Assembly: GCF_001654835.1 (NCBI RefSeq)
Contig: NZ_LXEP01000004.1
Span: 1 to 64,000 of the forward strand
Direction of reading: 5' to 3'
From: Buttiauxella gaviniae ATCC 51604
Lineage (GTDB): Bacteria > Pseudomonadota > Gammaproteobacteria > Enterobacterales > Enterobacteriaceae
DNA length: 64,000 bases
In this document: in pieces, positions 54,713 to 59,929 of the stretch
Position numbering within the stretch: position 1 is the stretch's first letter
Layout: the number at the start of each line of letters is the position of its first letter
Made by a program: the position numbers and the translations under genes
Notes under the pieces: model-generated
Seen by the model: the letters and a program-made list of their open reading frames with translations, nothing else
Told to the model about the DNA's origin: nothing
Database searches by the model: none

Positions 54713-54762
54713 ACCGTCCTCCATTGTTTAGAGGGAGCCTAACACGTTTAAATCATTTAAAT

Positions 54763-54791
54763 AAAAAAAGCCCCAGCAAAACGCCGGGGCC
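54763..54791 (-). terminator. Terminator of the dlt-like operon (repeat copy 1)
   Basis: Minus strand GCCCCGGCG-TTTT-GCTGGGGC stem with seven T. Identical over 31 bp (54761-54791) to a terminator at 59899-59929. Confidence 0.85.
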
Positions 54792-54812: not shown

Positions 54813-55031
54813 TCAGGCGTTTTCTTCAAGCCAGGCGGCCAACGTTGCTGGTGTTTTCAACACTGTCGCCACATCTGTTGGTGGAATGGCACAACCAAAT
54901 TCGGCCTGCACCTCCAGCACAACATCAACCGCTGTGATTGAGTCGAGAATACCGGACTCAACCAACTCATCGTTAAACGCAACTTTACGTGACAACACGT
55001 TTTCAAAGAGGGCTAAAATTTTCTGCTCCAT
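54813..55031 (-). CDS. dltC: DltC-like carrier protein
   Basis: A 72-aa acyl-carrier-type protein. Phosphopantetheine attaches to S31 in GILDSITAVDVV. The DltA-like enzyme should load it, and the MBOAT protein should take the group from it at the membrane. Last gene of the operon, 18 nt after dltA. Short for the family (76-80 aa). Confidence 0.85.
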   Translation of the reverse strand: MEQKILALFENVLSRKVAFNDELVESGILDSITAVDVVLEVQAEFGCAIPPTDVATVLKTPATLAAWLEENA

Positions 55032-55049
55032 TTTCTTATCCTTTAATGA

Positions 55050-56486
55050 TTAACAGGTACGCGCCTGTGCATCGAGTAGTTTGCGGTCAATCTTCCCGTT
55101 AGGGTTGAGAGGTAACATGTCCATGACGACAATCTGAGATGGCACCATATAAGACGGTAATGTTTTGGTGAGATTAGCTTTGATCTCTTTCTCAGAAAGC
55201 GATGAAGAACAAAAAGCCGCAAGGCGTAGAACAGCCCCATCTTTTTTAGTCAGCGGTAACACAACCGCTTCGCTAATTCCTGAAAGTGCTAACAGCCGGT
55301 TTTCGATTTCATGGATTTCAATGCGATAACCGTTCATTTTAATCTGGCTATCGTTGCGCCCCTGGCAATATAAATGCTCTTTATTAATACGACCCAGATC
55401 GCCCGTTTTATAGCCACGCCACTGTTTGCTTTCATTCCATAACAGTTTCTCGCTATTTTCTTCCGCCAACCCGAGATAGCCACGCATGACGTTCTTACCC
55501 CAAATAATTAATTCATTATCTGCAGTTATTTCCATTTCAGAATGGGGCATCATCTGGCCTATTGGCAGAAGATCACATTCGCTTTTAAGCATTTCATCGC
55601 TGATTTCAACAACCGTCGTGGCAATGGTCGCTTCCGTTGGGCCATAAGAATTGAGTATTTTGGCTTCAGGAAAAAGACGACGCAGATGCTTTACCAGTGC
55701 TTTACTGAGAACTTCACCGATAAAAATAAAGACTTTCAGGTCAGTTAAATATTCAGCACAAAATTCTGGAAGCAGCAGTTTTTGATAGGCAAAAGAAGGG
55801 GTCGAAACCCAGGCAGAAACCTTTTTCTGCTTTAACGTCGCCAGCCAGTTTTCAGCTGCAATGTCCTCTTTTGCGTTAAGAACGATATGCCCGCCAGTCG
55901 CAAGATTTCCCAACAGTGGAATTAAAGACAGATCGAAGCTAAATACCGCATGGTTCATCAGCACCGGGGTTTCAGGCAGGGAAAAATCATTGCGCACCCA
56001 CTGCATGAAATTCCATACACTTTCACGGCCAATCTGCACCCCTTTTGGTTTACCCGTACTGCCTGAGGTAAACATAATGTAGGCCAAATCCTGCTGTTCC
56101 TGTTCTTGCGCCTGGACTCCGGTCGCCACAAAACAACGCAGCCTTACATCATAATAGTAAGGCGCACTGGCTAATTCACAGATCTCTTTCAGGCGCTCTG
56201 CCGGATAGATATTATCCACCGGGATATAGGGAATGTTATTGAGCAGGCAGCTATAAATAGCGCAGGCAAATTCCGCTTGCTGGTGACCATAAAGGACAAT
56301 GGGTATATTTGGCGTTAAATTTAGCCCGGCGAAACGCATCTTCCAGTCAACTACAGCTGAACTAAGCTCCTGCCAGGTCAAGCTATTATCACTGCCAGTG
56401 ATCGCTAATTGGTGACTGTTTTGTGGTTCAAGTAAAACCGCCTGCAGATAATCATTGAGTTGTTGTAAATCAGAATTATTAATCAT
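55050..56486 (-). CDS. dltA: DltA-like adenylating enzyme
   Basis: A 478-aa adenylate-forming ligase. Core motif A3 YIMFTSGSTGKPKG (136-149), A5 NSYGPTEATI, A7 YKTGDLGR, A8 GRNDSQIKMNGYRIE and A10 NPNGKIDRK (catalytic Lys) are all present. It activates a carboxylic acid or amino acid and loads the DltC-like carrier. D-alanine is the substrate in Gram-positive dlt systems; here it is unproven. It overlaps dltB by 4 nt (ATGA). Confidence 0.85.
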   Translation of the reverse strand: MINNSDLQQLNDYLQAVLLEPQNSHQLAITGSDNSLTWQELSSAVVDWKMRFAGLNLTPNIPIVLYGHQQAEFACAIYSCLLNNIPYIPVDNIYPAERLKEICELASAPYYYDVRLRCFVATGVQAQEQEQQDLAYIMFTSGSTGKPKGVQIGRESVWNFMQWVRNDFSLPETPVLMNHAVFSFDLSLIPLLGNLATGGHIVLNAKEDIAAENWLATLKQKKVSAWVSTPSFAYQKLLLPEFCAEYLTDLKVFIFIGEVLSKALVKHLRRLFPEAKILNSYGPTEATIATTVVEISDEMLKSECDLLPIGQMMPHSEMEITADNELIIWGKNVMRGYLGLAEENSEKLLWNESKQWRGYKTGDLGRINKEHLYCQGRNDSQIKMNGYRIEIHEIENRLLALSGISEAVVLPLTKKDGAVLRLAAFCSSSLSEKEIKANLTKTLPSYMVPSQIVVMDMLPLNPNGKIDRKLLDAQARTC

Positions 56487-57604
56487 ACTGGAGACATTCC
56501 ACTAAAAATATAAAGAGAGACTGCCGCACTTGCTAAGGTTAAAAACCGCCCCGTCAGGACAATCAGTGGTTTTTGTAACCAGCTGGTCATTCGTGGGCTA
56601 TGCTTTGCAAGCCAAAGAATCATATTGTGGATAACGGAAATACTGCCGAACAATGCACCACTGACAACATAATTAAGCTCCAGCCCATTCCAGGCCCCCA
56701 TACAAAACAGAGTGCAGAAAATACCGATATTTTGTGCCGTGACCTTATGATTTCTGAAAAAATCGATCTTCATCAGATTCATATAAATCGGCATAAAGAC
56801 CACATCACGAAGCCACTCTGACAGGCTAATATGAAACCTGCGCCAGAAATCCTGCGGATTCTTTGCCAGTAACGGCAGGTTAAAGTTGGCGGGGAGATTG
56901 AGCCCGAACAAACGTCCTGCGCCAATCGCCATATTGCTGTAGCCGGCAAAATCGAAATAAAGATAAAAGCTATAGGCCATCGACATCACCACCCAAACCG
57001 TCATAGTAACTGGACGATGACTCCAGTGGCTGATAATGAAATTATCAATCAGCATAGCAAACAGAAACTTCTGCACGATGCCATAGAATATTTGCTCCAT
57101 TGACTGCAAAAACACCGCAGTCGTGAGGCGAAAATTGGGTTTAGAAATATCCTGTACCCAACTACGCCAGCGGTACATCGGCCCCGCCAAAATAATGAAA
57201 GGTAAAAAGAGATAGCTAAAATACTGGAAGAAATCACGAGAGTCTTTCTTGTTGCGATAGAGTAAAACATCTATCGCTCTGAAGGTCATAAATGACAACC
57301 CGAGCATGCCCCAGTGGTTATTTAAATGCAGTTTTACCAGTATCAGTGGTAGCAAACTCAAGATGACTGATTGCCAGGTTTTAAGCCATGTTTTGTCTTT
57401 TAATGTGGCGATGGTATACAAATAGCCAAACATTAAAATGGGAATAGTGATCTGGCTTTTGAAGACATATCCCCATACGGCAAACAGCGCAAAAGCAGAA
57501 AATAGCGATGCATAAGTCAGGCGATTACCCAACAAGCGATTAGCTACTGTAAAAATGAGTGAGCTCGCAAATAACACAGCAAAGAAAGGTGCGCTTGTGT
57601 ACAT
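56483..57604 (-). CDS. dltB: DltB-like MBOAT membrane protein with altered active site
   Basis: A 373-aa MBOAT-fold protein with about ten membrane helices. The conserved block NPQDFWRRFHISLSEWLRDVV (about 249-269, with H258) is intact. The next block, normally WHG with the invariant MBOAT histidine, reads AWNGLELNYVVSGALFG: the residue is N306. DltB moves the acyl group from DltC to DltX and on outside the cell. Either catalysis works differently here or the enzyme is impaired; the DNA reads AAT clearly. AAGGAAT ribosome site follows dltX. Confidence 0.85.
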   Translation of the reverse strand: MYTSAPFFAVLFASSLIFTVANRLLGNRLTYASLFSAFALFAVWGYVFKSQITIPILMFGYLYTIATLKDKTWLKTWQSVILSLLPLILVKLHLNNHWGMLGLSFMTFRAIDVLLYRNKKDSRDFFQYFSYLFLPFIILAGPMYRWRSWVQDISKPNFRLTTAVFLQSMEQIFYGIVQKFLFAMLIDNFIISHWSHRPVTMTVWVVMSMAYSFYLYFDFAGYSNMAIGAGRLFGLNLPANFNLPLLAKNPQDFWRRFHISLSEWLRDVVFMPIYMNLMKIDFFRNHKVTAQNIGIFCTLFCMGAWNGLELNYVVSGALFGSISVIHNMILWLAKHSPRMTSWLQKPLIVLTGRFLTLASAAVSLYIFSGMSPV

Positions 57605-57615
57605 TCTCTTATTCC

Positions 57616-57735
57616 TTAAAACTGCTGATATTCAAAATGCAGCTTCAAATTCATACTGTTATCAATTGATGACCAGGCAATAATGGTGATCATCAAAAAG
57701 AAATAGAGGAAAAAGAGTCGAATCGCTTTTTTCAT
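57616..57735 (-). CDS. dltX: DltX-like microprotein (39 aa)
   Basis: A 39-aa ORF in the gap between dltD and dltB. Its ATG overlaps the dltD stop (ATGA), and dltB follows after 11 nt. The peptide has a basic N-terminus (MKKAIR), one hydrophobic helix (about 7-22) and ends F-E-Y-Q-Q-F with Y36 fourth from the end. DltX of Gram-positives is a one-helix microprotein ending in F-I-Y-N-E-F, whose Tyr is proposed to carry the acyl group across the membrane. Length, topology, position and C-terminus all agree. Confidence 0.75.
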   Translation of the reverse strand: MKKAIRLFFLYFFLMITIIAWSSIDNSMNLKLHFEYQQF

Positions 57736-58880
57736 TTGTTAAATGCCTCTGCAATATAACGGTCCATTGCGACCCATGCTAATTCGGTTGGATGAAGACG
57801 GTCCCAATTCCATCCCGGTTGATATATTTGGTCGTACATATCAAAATATGGAATATCATACTTTTTCAGTGTCTGTTGGATGAAGCGGTCGGTCGGCTGG
57901 AATTTTTCGGTATTCTTTAAAGCCCACGAGTTGAGCGGATCGATAATCACGACTACATTGACCTGGCGCTCATGCAGCAGCTTTATCATAGCTGTAAACG
58001 CCTGTTGTTCTGGATGCGATGGAGGCGCGGTATACCACTCCTCTACCGTTTTATCATCTGCAAATATGTCTTTATCCATCCATAACGTGGCCGCACTTTC
58101 ATGACGAGAACGATTCAGTTTCTGGGCCAACTGCAATTCAGCGTTCCAGTCAATATTCGACCAGTTATCGCGGGGGGCAGGCCACGGCTGCATATTCGAT
58201 TGACCAAAATGGGAAAATGACAGGAAATAATTCCTGATCAATTCACAGAATGATGAGAATTGATATTTAATTTCACGCCAGACAATTTTGTAATGCCAGC
58301 CAAAAATGCGCATCTGGCTAAACGTCAAATGGTCAACATCTTGCGGGTCGATATGGGTTAAATAATGGGTCAAGATGGGATGCATTGTTGCATCCGACAT
58401 CAATGGTTTAAATACCGAGTCAGGGAAATGATCAGCGAAAATTGTCGGTGGAATGCCATCAAAAAAGAAACTATCAGGTGACAATAACAACACCAGTTTC
58501 GTTTTTGGCGACAGTTCTTGTTTAAAGCGCGTCAACAAAGCAAGCTGCGTCATGTTATCGACAAAGCTGTCACCGTAGGCAACGGTCGGTTGATGCAGTT
58601 TTGTATTGAAGAAATTATAGACCGCAAAATGCTCATCTTCAGAGGTTGAAACTTCAGATGCCCCGAGGAAAAATATCGCATTACCATTTAAAGCATGCGA
58701 AATGGTCGCCATTTTCTCAGACTGAATTTTGCGCGTACCTTCCATTGTTTTAATGAGTGGTTGAAATTTTAGCGCAGGTTGTAAGCTATTAATAAATGGC
58801 GGCAGGGTTAAGACCAAAGCAGCAAGGATCGCCATGGAAACATGCAATAAAATAGCTTTATTTATTTTCATAATAAACAC
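57732..58880 (-). CDS. dltD: DltD-like acyltransferase/thioesterase
   Basis: A 382-aa protein with an N-terminal membrane anchor (about 8-27) and an extracytoplasmic SGNH-like domain. Catalytic Ser75 in FLGASEVS and the D360-x-x-H363 pair in WDRLHP are present, matching DltD. It should transfer or remove the acyl group at the acceptor outside the inner membrane. First gene of the operon; ATG codon 4 (58871) is an alternative start. Confidence 0.85.
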   Translation of the reverse strand: MFIMKINKAILLHVSMAILAALVLTLPPFINSLQPALKFQPLIKTMEGTRKIQSEKMATISHALNGNAIFFLGASEVSTSEDEHFAVYNFFNTKLHQPTVAYGDSFVDNMTQLALLTRFKQELSPKTKLVLLLSPDSFFFDGIPPTIFADHFPDSVFKPLMSDATMHPILTHYLTHIDPQDVDHLTFSQMRIFGWHYKIVWREIKYQFSSFCELIRNYFLSFSHFGQSNMQPWPAPRDNWSNIDWNAELQLAQKLNRSRHESAATLWMDKDIFADDKTVEEWYTAPPSHPEQQAFTAMIKLLHERQVNVVVIIDPLNSWALKNTEKFQPTDRFIQQTLKKYDIPYFDMYDQIYQPGWNWDRLHPTELAWVAMDRYIAEAFNK

Positions 58881-59190
58881 AACTTTGTCGACACTAAATA
58901 AAAATAGAAAATATTATTCAATCAATATTTTTAAATGGATTTTAATAATAAAGAAATGAACTACTCTATTCATTGAGTGATTGGTATCCGTATGTAACGC
59001 TTTGTACAATGCAGCAATTTCGAAATATGTGGTTAACAATTTTACCACATGAGGTAGGCAGGATAGAATTGGCATTGTGCCATGTAAATATGAAGAAATT
59101 ATGGTGAATTTTTGCAGAACTGATCCTGGGCCAAGGGAAACTAAAAGCCCGCAAACGGCTCACAGCCACAGGAAAGGGTTAACCGTATTT
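58881..59190 (-). promoter_or_regulatory. Promoter region of dlt-like operon with dyad operator
   Basis: AT-rich 310-nt gap without genes. It contains an inverted repeat ATGTGGT-N10-ACCACAT (59027-59050), a likely binding site for an unidentified regulator. No PhoP box (GTTTA repeats) is evident. Confidence 0.5.
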
Positions 59191-59715
59191 CTATTTAATT
59201 AATTGCTTATGCAGTTGATCTGTGATGATTTCGATACGTTCTGTTAGCTGCTTAGTCACGTTAGTCAGCTCAGTATTCATCTCAATCAATTTAATCATCT
59301 GTTCGGCTTGTTCGGCCGCAAATTTTAATCGTTTTTCATTAGCCTGAGCTAAGTCTTCACGGTGCAATGCATCGGCTTCCCCGTGCGCTTTATCCCTCTC
59401 CGCCTGGCGTGTTTGGGCCAGCAAAATGAGTGGTGCCGCATAAGCGGCCTGCAGACTGAATGCCAGATTCAGCAAAATAAAGGGATAGAGATCAAAGTGG
59501 CTCACACCCGTCACGTTGAGAACTATCCAAACTAAAACGATGATAGTTTGAGCGCCCAGGAAGAAAGGCGTACCAAAAAACCTGGCAAAGGCTTCGGCTT
59601 TTAATGCAAACCAACTTTCCCCAAACGTTGGCATTAAATGCTGGTGAGCACGATGGAAACGTAAGTGATCCCTGGCCGTAATCTTTCCAGATGACTCTTG
59701 GTTGGATAGCGCCAT
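59191..59715 (-). CDS. DUF1003 membrane protein
   Basis: A 174-aa DUF1003 protein: two membrane helices (about 52-72 and 77-97) with WIVLNVTGVSHFDLYPFILLNLAFSLQAAYAAP, the family signature, and a long C-terminal coiled coil (about 105-170). Cellular role not known. Same direction as the dlt-like operon but separated from it by 310 nt. Confidence 0.85.
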   Translation of the reverse strand: MALSNQESSGKITARDHLRFHRAHQHLMPTFGESWFALKAEAFARFFGTPFFLGAQTIIVLVWIVLNVTGVSHFDLYPFILLNLAFSLQAAYAAPLILLAQTRQAERDKAHGEADALHREDLAQANEKRLKFAAEQAEQMIKLIEMNTELTNVTKQLTERIEIITDQLHKQLIK

Positions 59716-59900
59716 TTCCGTTACTCCTCAGCAATGAATGACTATTTATTACACTAAAGTCTAGCAGAGGAATTAACAGGCTTTTGGGAAGGGTTGAGGC
59801 TAACAAGGCGCGTTGATTAAATCGGAAACCGTATTTATTTCAGAATGAAAACTAAGCGCCTATACAGCACTCGATAAAATCGTAAATTATTGATATAGAT

Positions 59901-59929
59901 AAAAAAAGCCCCAGCAAAACGCCGGGGCC
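59901..59929 (-). terminator. Terminator after cutC (repeat copy 2)
   Basis: Same hairpin as at 54763-54791, preceded by the same AT, so 31 bp are identical. It ends the cutC transcript. Confidence 0.85.

Follow-up and report, generated by a model that had tools for sequence, protein, structure and literature searches.

What would a Dlt-type operon do in Buttiauxella, a host that is not known to have teichoic acids? The question is raised by a 64-kb stretch of Buttiauxella gaviniae ATCC 51604 (hereafter, the window), whose genome totals 5.07 Mb over 133 contigs. On its minus strand, from position 58880 down to 54813, five open reading frames (ORFs) follow each other in the order dltD, dltX, dltB, dltA, and dltC (Table 1). 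An earlier, sequence-only reading had placed a Dlt-type operon of a Gram-negative enteric here, and we found all five ORFs at that place and in that order. Our best explanation, which we regard as probable, is that they form a mobile enterobacterial Dlt cassette aminoacylating an envelope polymer, with a rewired DltB, a re-cut DltA pocket, and probable control by RstA.

The assignment to a Dlt-type system is supported by the predicted proteins: a DltD fold, an MBOAT protein, a DltA-like enzyme, a carrier with the LDSI motif, and a DltX ending in FEYQQF. Among the Pfam models, DltD scored 86.8 bits (cut-off 22.7), MBOAT 39.5 (27), AMP-binding 164.3 (29.9), and PP-binding, the PF00550 carrier domain of dltC, 41.5 (20.8); the 39-aa dltX ORF had no match among the Pfam or NCBIfam models. 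In NCBIfam, Dlt models were the best matches for DltD, DltB, DltA, and DltC, all four under the curated cut-offs (two DltA models at 371.9 and 357.7 bits, cut-offs 476 and 559.85; DltB 204.1, cut-off 375; DltC 32.1, cut-off 68). Thus, these four proteins appear to be homologous to the curated families, yet to lie outside them.

A DltB-queried scan of genome contigs gave 46 loci, which include Buttiauxella, Pectobacterium, Dickeya, Kosakonia, Cedecea, Lelliottia, Phytobacter, Enterobacter, and one record titled Serratia marcescens. In 44 of them, each of the five genes has an ORF of its own and the order is D-X-B-A-C; the exceptions are L057, without a DltC match, and L067, where the DltD and DltX matches fall in one ORF. 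The gene order, which the sequence-only reading had called distinctive, is thus shared. Broken dlt genes occur in L057, L063, L066, and L067. As AMP-binding domains and carriers are also found in non-ribosomal peptide synthetases (NRPSs), the five genes could be thought a siderophore or polyketide fragment, or chance neighbors. This is extremely improbable: the DltA models outscore every NRPS model among the best 25 of 103 matches, the five-gene order is kept across the loci, and neither DltD nor DltX belongs to NRPS systems. The comparison of the A-domain with siderophore sets, proposed with the earlier reading, favors Dlt, and a siderophore or NRPS origin was rejected on model scores (the two DltA models against 259 bits for the generic amino-acid adenylation model).

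The residue alignments comprised the 46 other enterobacterial loci, the window, and one plasmid copy, minus broken or short ORFs (left out were L066 and L067 for DltB and DltD; L057 and L066 for DltC; L057, L063, L066, and L067 for DltA). The loci are related by descent, and the residue and promoter-box counts given here are not independent trials.

In DltB, the position of His336 is occupied by Asn in 46/46 enterobacterial rows, and the partner His289 is kept; the window protein matches the solved DltB 6bug with a phmmer E value of 1e-30. Three papers call this residue invariant or universally conserved among MBOATs (PMC11035591, PMC12148441, PMC12979248), and the His is kept in the 30 distinct other MBOATs that we compared. 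Because its MBOAT lacks the invariant His336, we call the system a Dlt variant and not a canonical member. On our best reading, the DltB of enterobacteria has a rewired MBOAT active site. Indeed, the His/Asn swap suggests His258 as the base; it would probably act opposite Asn, in a mirror image of the usual Asn/His pair. A bacterial MBOAT branch without the "invariant" His could serve to test the role of that residue.

It could also be proposed that DltB is a dead MBOAT, a channel or scaffold only, and that the system does something else. Asn306 stands at the position whose Ala mutant is inactive in PatA (excerpt of PMC12148441), and a Dickeya dltD mutant is as resistant as the wild type (reported via PMC5541007, in excerpt). 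We consider this very unlikely, since the mean column identity of 25 DltBs is 85%, with His258 and the adjoining residues invariant, and the Tyr motif of DltX is invariant too. The C-terminus of DltX reads FEYQ[QK]F in 48/48 rows and carries FxYxxF, the acyl-shuttle motif of DltX according to an excerpt of PMC12148441. Most of the MBOATs aligned from a search of the phylum have this motif at their own C-terminus, like AlgI and PatA.

In DltA, Ile occupies the positions of both Cys269 and Met201 in 44/44 rows, and Asp197, Leu198, and Lys492 are kept in all 44. Cys269 is a main determinant of D- over L-alanine in Bacillus cereus DltA (PMC4176424), and a Cys is present in all five solved Gram-positive DltA sequences compared, two of which are nearly the same protein. 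The predicted selectivity pocket is changed in every member examined. These replacements speak for a cargo of glycine, L-alanine, or another small amino acid, as with glycine in the AlmEFG system of Vibrio cholerae. We hold a cargo other than D-alanine to be rather unlikely, given that a bulkier residue at position 269 could bar L-alanine even better; the three kept residues mean that an alpha-amino acid is still to be expected.

The conserved positions also bear on a simpler explanation, plain D-alanylation of lipopolysaccharide (LPS) as in Gram-positives, with neutral residue changes and a base supplied from elsewhere. This explanation overlaps with the one we prefer. The DltX motif, the Ser-Asp-His triad found in the window DltD, and the phosphopantetheine Ser of DltC (46/46 rows) are all kept, DltA models top all scores, and the dlt genes of Dickeya probably modify LPS (PMC5541007). 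Against it, the positions that the literature holds invariant or decisive are replaced in every DltB and DltA row, and since both are fixed as changed, neutrality is hard to accept. We see plain D-alanylation as possible, on the doubtful side.

Table 1. Features of the dlt locus in the window (positions in the 64-kb stretch).
Feature	Position	Strand	Length	Description
dltC	54813..55031	-	72 aa	Carrier protein; phosphopantetheine Ser31 within LDSI
dltA	55050..56486	-	478 aa	Adenylation enzyme; Ile256 at Cys269 and Ile189 at Met201 (B. cereus numbering)
dltB	56483..57604	-	373 aa	MBOAT; His258 (S. thermophilus His289) kept; Asn306 at the His336 position
dltX	57616..57735	-	39 aa	One-helix microprotein; C-terminus FEYQQF (acyl-shuttle motif FxYxxF)
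dltD	57732..58880	-	382 aa	SGNH-fold transferase with N-terminal membrane anchor; Ser75, Asp360, His363
RstA-type box	58993..59006	-		TACAAAGCGTTACA; upstream of dltD; 10/12 to the published consensus
Direct repeat, left copy	54761..54791		31 bp	Terminator-like; beside cmoB; exact repeat
Direct repeat, right copy	59899..59929		31 bp	Terminator-like; beside cutC

The layout is compact, with four-base overlaps between dltD and dltX and between dltB and dltA; dltD is called from a GTG at 58880, and an ATG at 58871, three codons downstream, is an alternative start.

By homology, the preferred explanation could work as follows. DltA would activate a small amino acid, most likely D-alanine, through a substrate pocket re-cut in the enterobacterial lineage, and load it on Ser31 of DltC. 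DltB would carry the amino acid through the inner membrane to the Tyr in the DltX motif, DltX would pass it to Ser75 of DltD, and DltD would attach it as an ester to a hydroxyl group on a glycan of the periplasm or outer membrane. The lowered negative charge may protect the cell from cationic peptides, and perhaps from acid. As regards the acceptor, we clustered the flanking ORFs of at least 90 aa across 47 loci and found no general companion gene among them: besides DltD, DltB, and DltA, the commonest cluster, not identified, occurs in 15/47 loci at varying positions, and all others in at most 9. Since the operon lacks a general companion and sits in several genomic settings, we expect the acceptor to be some glycan that enterobacteria have in common, and this reduces the field of candidates; beside LPS, these could be the enterobacterial common antigen and glucans with phosphoglycerol.

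What could switch the operon on? Upstream of dltD lies a box similar to the published RstA consensus, TACATNTNGTTACA. Among 48 upstream regions scored (the 46 loci, the window, and the plasmid), two reach 12/12, 40 reach 11/12, and four, including the window, 10/12; L066 and L067, where dltD is truncated, score 8 and 9 directly before the called ORF. The relaxed pattern TACATNNNGTTACA, which is the consensus with its seventh base free, is found within 300 bp of the called dltD exactly in 40/46 loci and with one mismatch in 4/46. In L066 and L067, an exact box stands 0.7-0.9 kb before the truncated ORF, approximately where the intact gene would begin, so that overall 42/46 loci have an exact box upstream of dltD and 4/46 one with a single mismatch, as in the window. 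Across 1.91 million strand-bases, the pattern has 43 exact matches, only one of these elsewhere (in L057), against 0.46 expected at equal base frequencies. In shuffled upstream regions, scores of at least 11 were obtained in 6/1920 cases. When 22 promoters were anchored on the box, it was the sole long block kept at 90%, and 26 genome loci, the window's own included, all score at least 10/12. The window's box alone is weak, yet it is the sole match to TACANNNNGTTACA in the 64 kb (0.10 expected) and stands at the conserved place. L057 and L066 are Symbiopectobacterium records, in which the operon is broken and the RstA-type box is still exact.

About 40 bp upstream of dltD recur at another place in genomes of this genus. 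In the genome of the window, that place (on contig 36) precedes a gene matching the Asr (acid shock protein) model of Pfam, and an RstA-type box is present upstream of asr in this genome. The asr gene is a known RstA target (excerpt of PMC4117788); in Escherichia coli, it has TACATATCGTTACA 104 bp before its start. Judged by eye, a TATAGT-like -10 element lies about 42 nt from the box in asr and about 32 nt from it in many dlt promoters, a difference of roughly one helical turn. An RstA gene, 78% identical to E. coli RstA, is carried by the window's genome, and RstA is present in 24 of the 25 dlt-positive genomes of the family and in two of the three dlt-free Buttiauxella. Taken together, RstB/RstA is the likely switch of the dlt operon, acting through the promoter box. 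Such control, if true, would tie dlt to acid and, via PhoP/PhoQ, to low magnesium (excerpt of PMC4117788).

A stronger version of these ideas would be a distinct mobile pathway, with a swapped-dyad MBOAT, a cargo other than D-alanine, a common Gram-negative glycan as acceptor, and direct RstA control together with the asr acid-shock regulon. The His of the swapped dyad would lie on the re-entrant loop and the Asn on the helix that holds the invariant His of other MBOATs. We judge this full combination unlikely.

To weigh the preferred explanation, the envelope-modifying cassette under probable RstA control, previous work on relatives can be considered. Dlt operons are strongly induced by polymyxin. 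They are strongly induced also in aphids (excerpt of PMC3544676), and for them the box offers a concrete and easily tested regulator. In Dickeya, whose dlt genes were already studied by 2013, dltB is up 32-fold in aphids, and polymyxin causes 99% mortality in a dltB mutant (excerpts of PMC3544676). Several points weigh against our explanation. The killing of aphids is not significantly altered in Dickeya dltB mutants (same excerpts); the insertion in dltB may have polar effects on dltA and dltC. The resistant Dickeya dltD mutant is a misfit with a required DltD. The AlphaFold2 model of DltB is poor, with a predicted local distance difference test (pLDDT) value of 56, and the geometry of His258 and Asn306 thus rests on alignment; the predicted DltD model is weak at Asp360-His363. 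As for the box, the relaxed pattern is one base looser than the consensus, most dlt upstream regions stop at 11/12 with only 2/48 at 12/12, and the window's score of 10 is reached or exceeded in 94/1920 shuffled regions. One genome (G041) has a perfect box, and RstA was not found in it at E 1e-70; the box could also serve other regulators of the OmpR family. Finally, Pandin in 2016 reportedly placed Dickeya dltB under the control of ArcA and not of PhoP.

The operon type itself is already known; the apparent novelty lies in the residue changes and the RstA-type box. The earlier reading had mentioned related sets in a few Gram-negatives, and these are indeed in print for Dickeya, Pectobacterium, and Photorhabdus (excerpts of PMC3544676 and PMC5541007). 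In the Dickeya and Pectobacterium loci that we fetched, the same five proteins occur in the same order and belong to the same family as the Buttiauxella set, and the intact loci share its Asn in DltB, Ile in DltA, and box. The Buttiauxella set differs in its insertion between cmoB and cutC and in its DltB, about 70-72% identical. An excerpt of PMC10931765 calls DltB homologs exclusive to soft-rot Pectobacteriaceae, which the loci in Buttiauxella, Kosakonia, Cedecea, and others contradict. Among the papers listed in the literature searches, which lie mostly outside subscription journals, we found neither the change of His336 to Asn, nor that of Cys269 to Ile, nor an RstA box at dlt; likewise, none of the literature matches listed links RstA to dlt, which does not establish absence in print.

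With the Gram-positive dltXABCD operon, the enterobacterial set shares five homologous parts, the DltX shuttle motif, the DltD fold with its triad, and the carrier Ser; it differs in order (D-X-B-A-C against X-A-B-C-D) and in the replacement of His336 and Cys269. AlmEFG of V. cholerae resembles it as an envelope aminoacylation against cationic peptides, and includes an adenylation enzyme and a carrier. AlmG is not known to be an MBOAT/SGNH pair, whereas the transferase parts in Buttiauxella are MBOAT and SGNH proteins (DltB-DltX-DltD); no search aimed at AlmG was made. CarR, which regulates AlmEFG, has been shown at tcpP to bind a potential RstA box (PMC9178039). Acetylation systems of the PatAB/AlgI type share an MBOAT, an SGNH protein, and an acyl-Tyr shuttle motif, with the differences that the donor is acyl-CoA and the motif lies on the MBOAT's own C-terminus (excerpt of PMC12148441), and that the other MBOATs compared retain the His where enterobacterial DltB has Asn.

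We then consider the spread of the cassette. DltD was found in 25/295 genomes of the family (11/154 genera) and in 9/12 of the genus; in the phylum, 398 genomes gave seven matches, of which six belong to the same family; the seventh, from the same order, is weak and below the cut-off. A search of the phylum for other DltBs matched 117/398 genomes. No dlt match was obtained in 5,426 E. coli genomes, queried in distant mode with the window operon and in near mode with the plasmid operon, and among phages 44 records had a DltB match, none covering more than 80% of the query. Practically identical dltDXBAC copies (100.0% as rounded) lie between insertion sequence elements on plasmids of Klebsiella electrica and Enterobacter cloacae (NZ_CP041250.1, L068 10733-14785; NZ_CP071862.1, L069), and in the Klebsiella pneumoniae record NZ_CP063883.1, 55% of the operon is matched at the record start, and the same record has a second place. 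In a DltB and DltA tree, the plasmid copy groups with two Phytobacter loci and one Kosakonia sp. The operon has a G+C content of 43.2%, against 48.3% for the window, and is lower than its flanks in 35/43 loci measured. The flanks differ between genera, and some flanking clusters recur in two or three of them. This pattern suggests that the dlt cassette is mobile and may travel between species as one unit. One of the dlt plasmids is of a conjugative IncFIB/IncHI1A type; it carries genes for aminoglycoside resistance at a distance of about 6 kb from the operon.

In the window, the operon has cmoB on one side and, on the other, a DUF1003 gene followed by cutC. To the sequence-only reading, this setting looked distinctive: dlt lies between cmoB and cutC in all seven Buttiauxella loci clustered, the window included, and in those only. 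That it replaces torZ and torY is true only against E. coli K-12, which has both genes between cmoB and cutC. In two dlt-free Buttiauxella (G165 and G682), cmoB adjoins cutC, and dlt is thus to be seen as an insertion and not a replacement. A third dlt-free Buttiauxella has about 42 kb there (G678:C27:123800-165775); the site has the appearance of a hot spot for insertions. The 31-bp repeat pair brackets the dlt operon and the DUF1003 gene in the window; in G165, the matches to the two flanks have 31 bp in common, corresponding to one repeat copy. Two copies are also present in L060, from Buttiauxella brennerae ATCC 51605, the closest relative named, whose five Dlt proteins are 93-98% identical, and one copy in the remaining five Buttiauxella loci.

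Two minor observations can be added. Lone DltB homologs beside bactofencin-type bacteriocins serve as immunity, and a Ligilactobacillus murinus plasmid pairs such a bacteriocin with a lone dltB (L073 4453-5861). The DUF1003 gene of the window (59191-59715) has similar sequence on another contig in G165 and G681.

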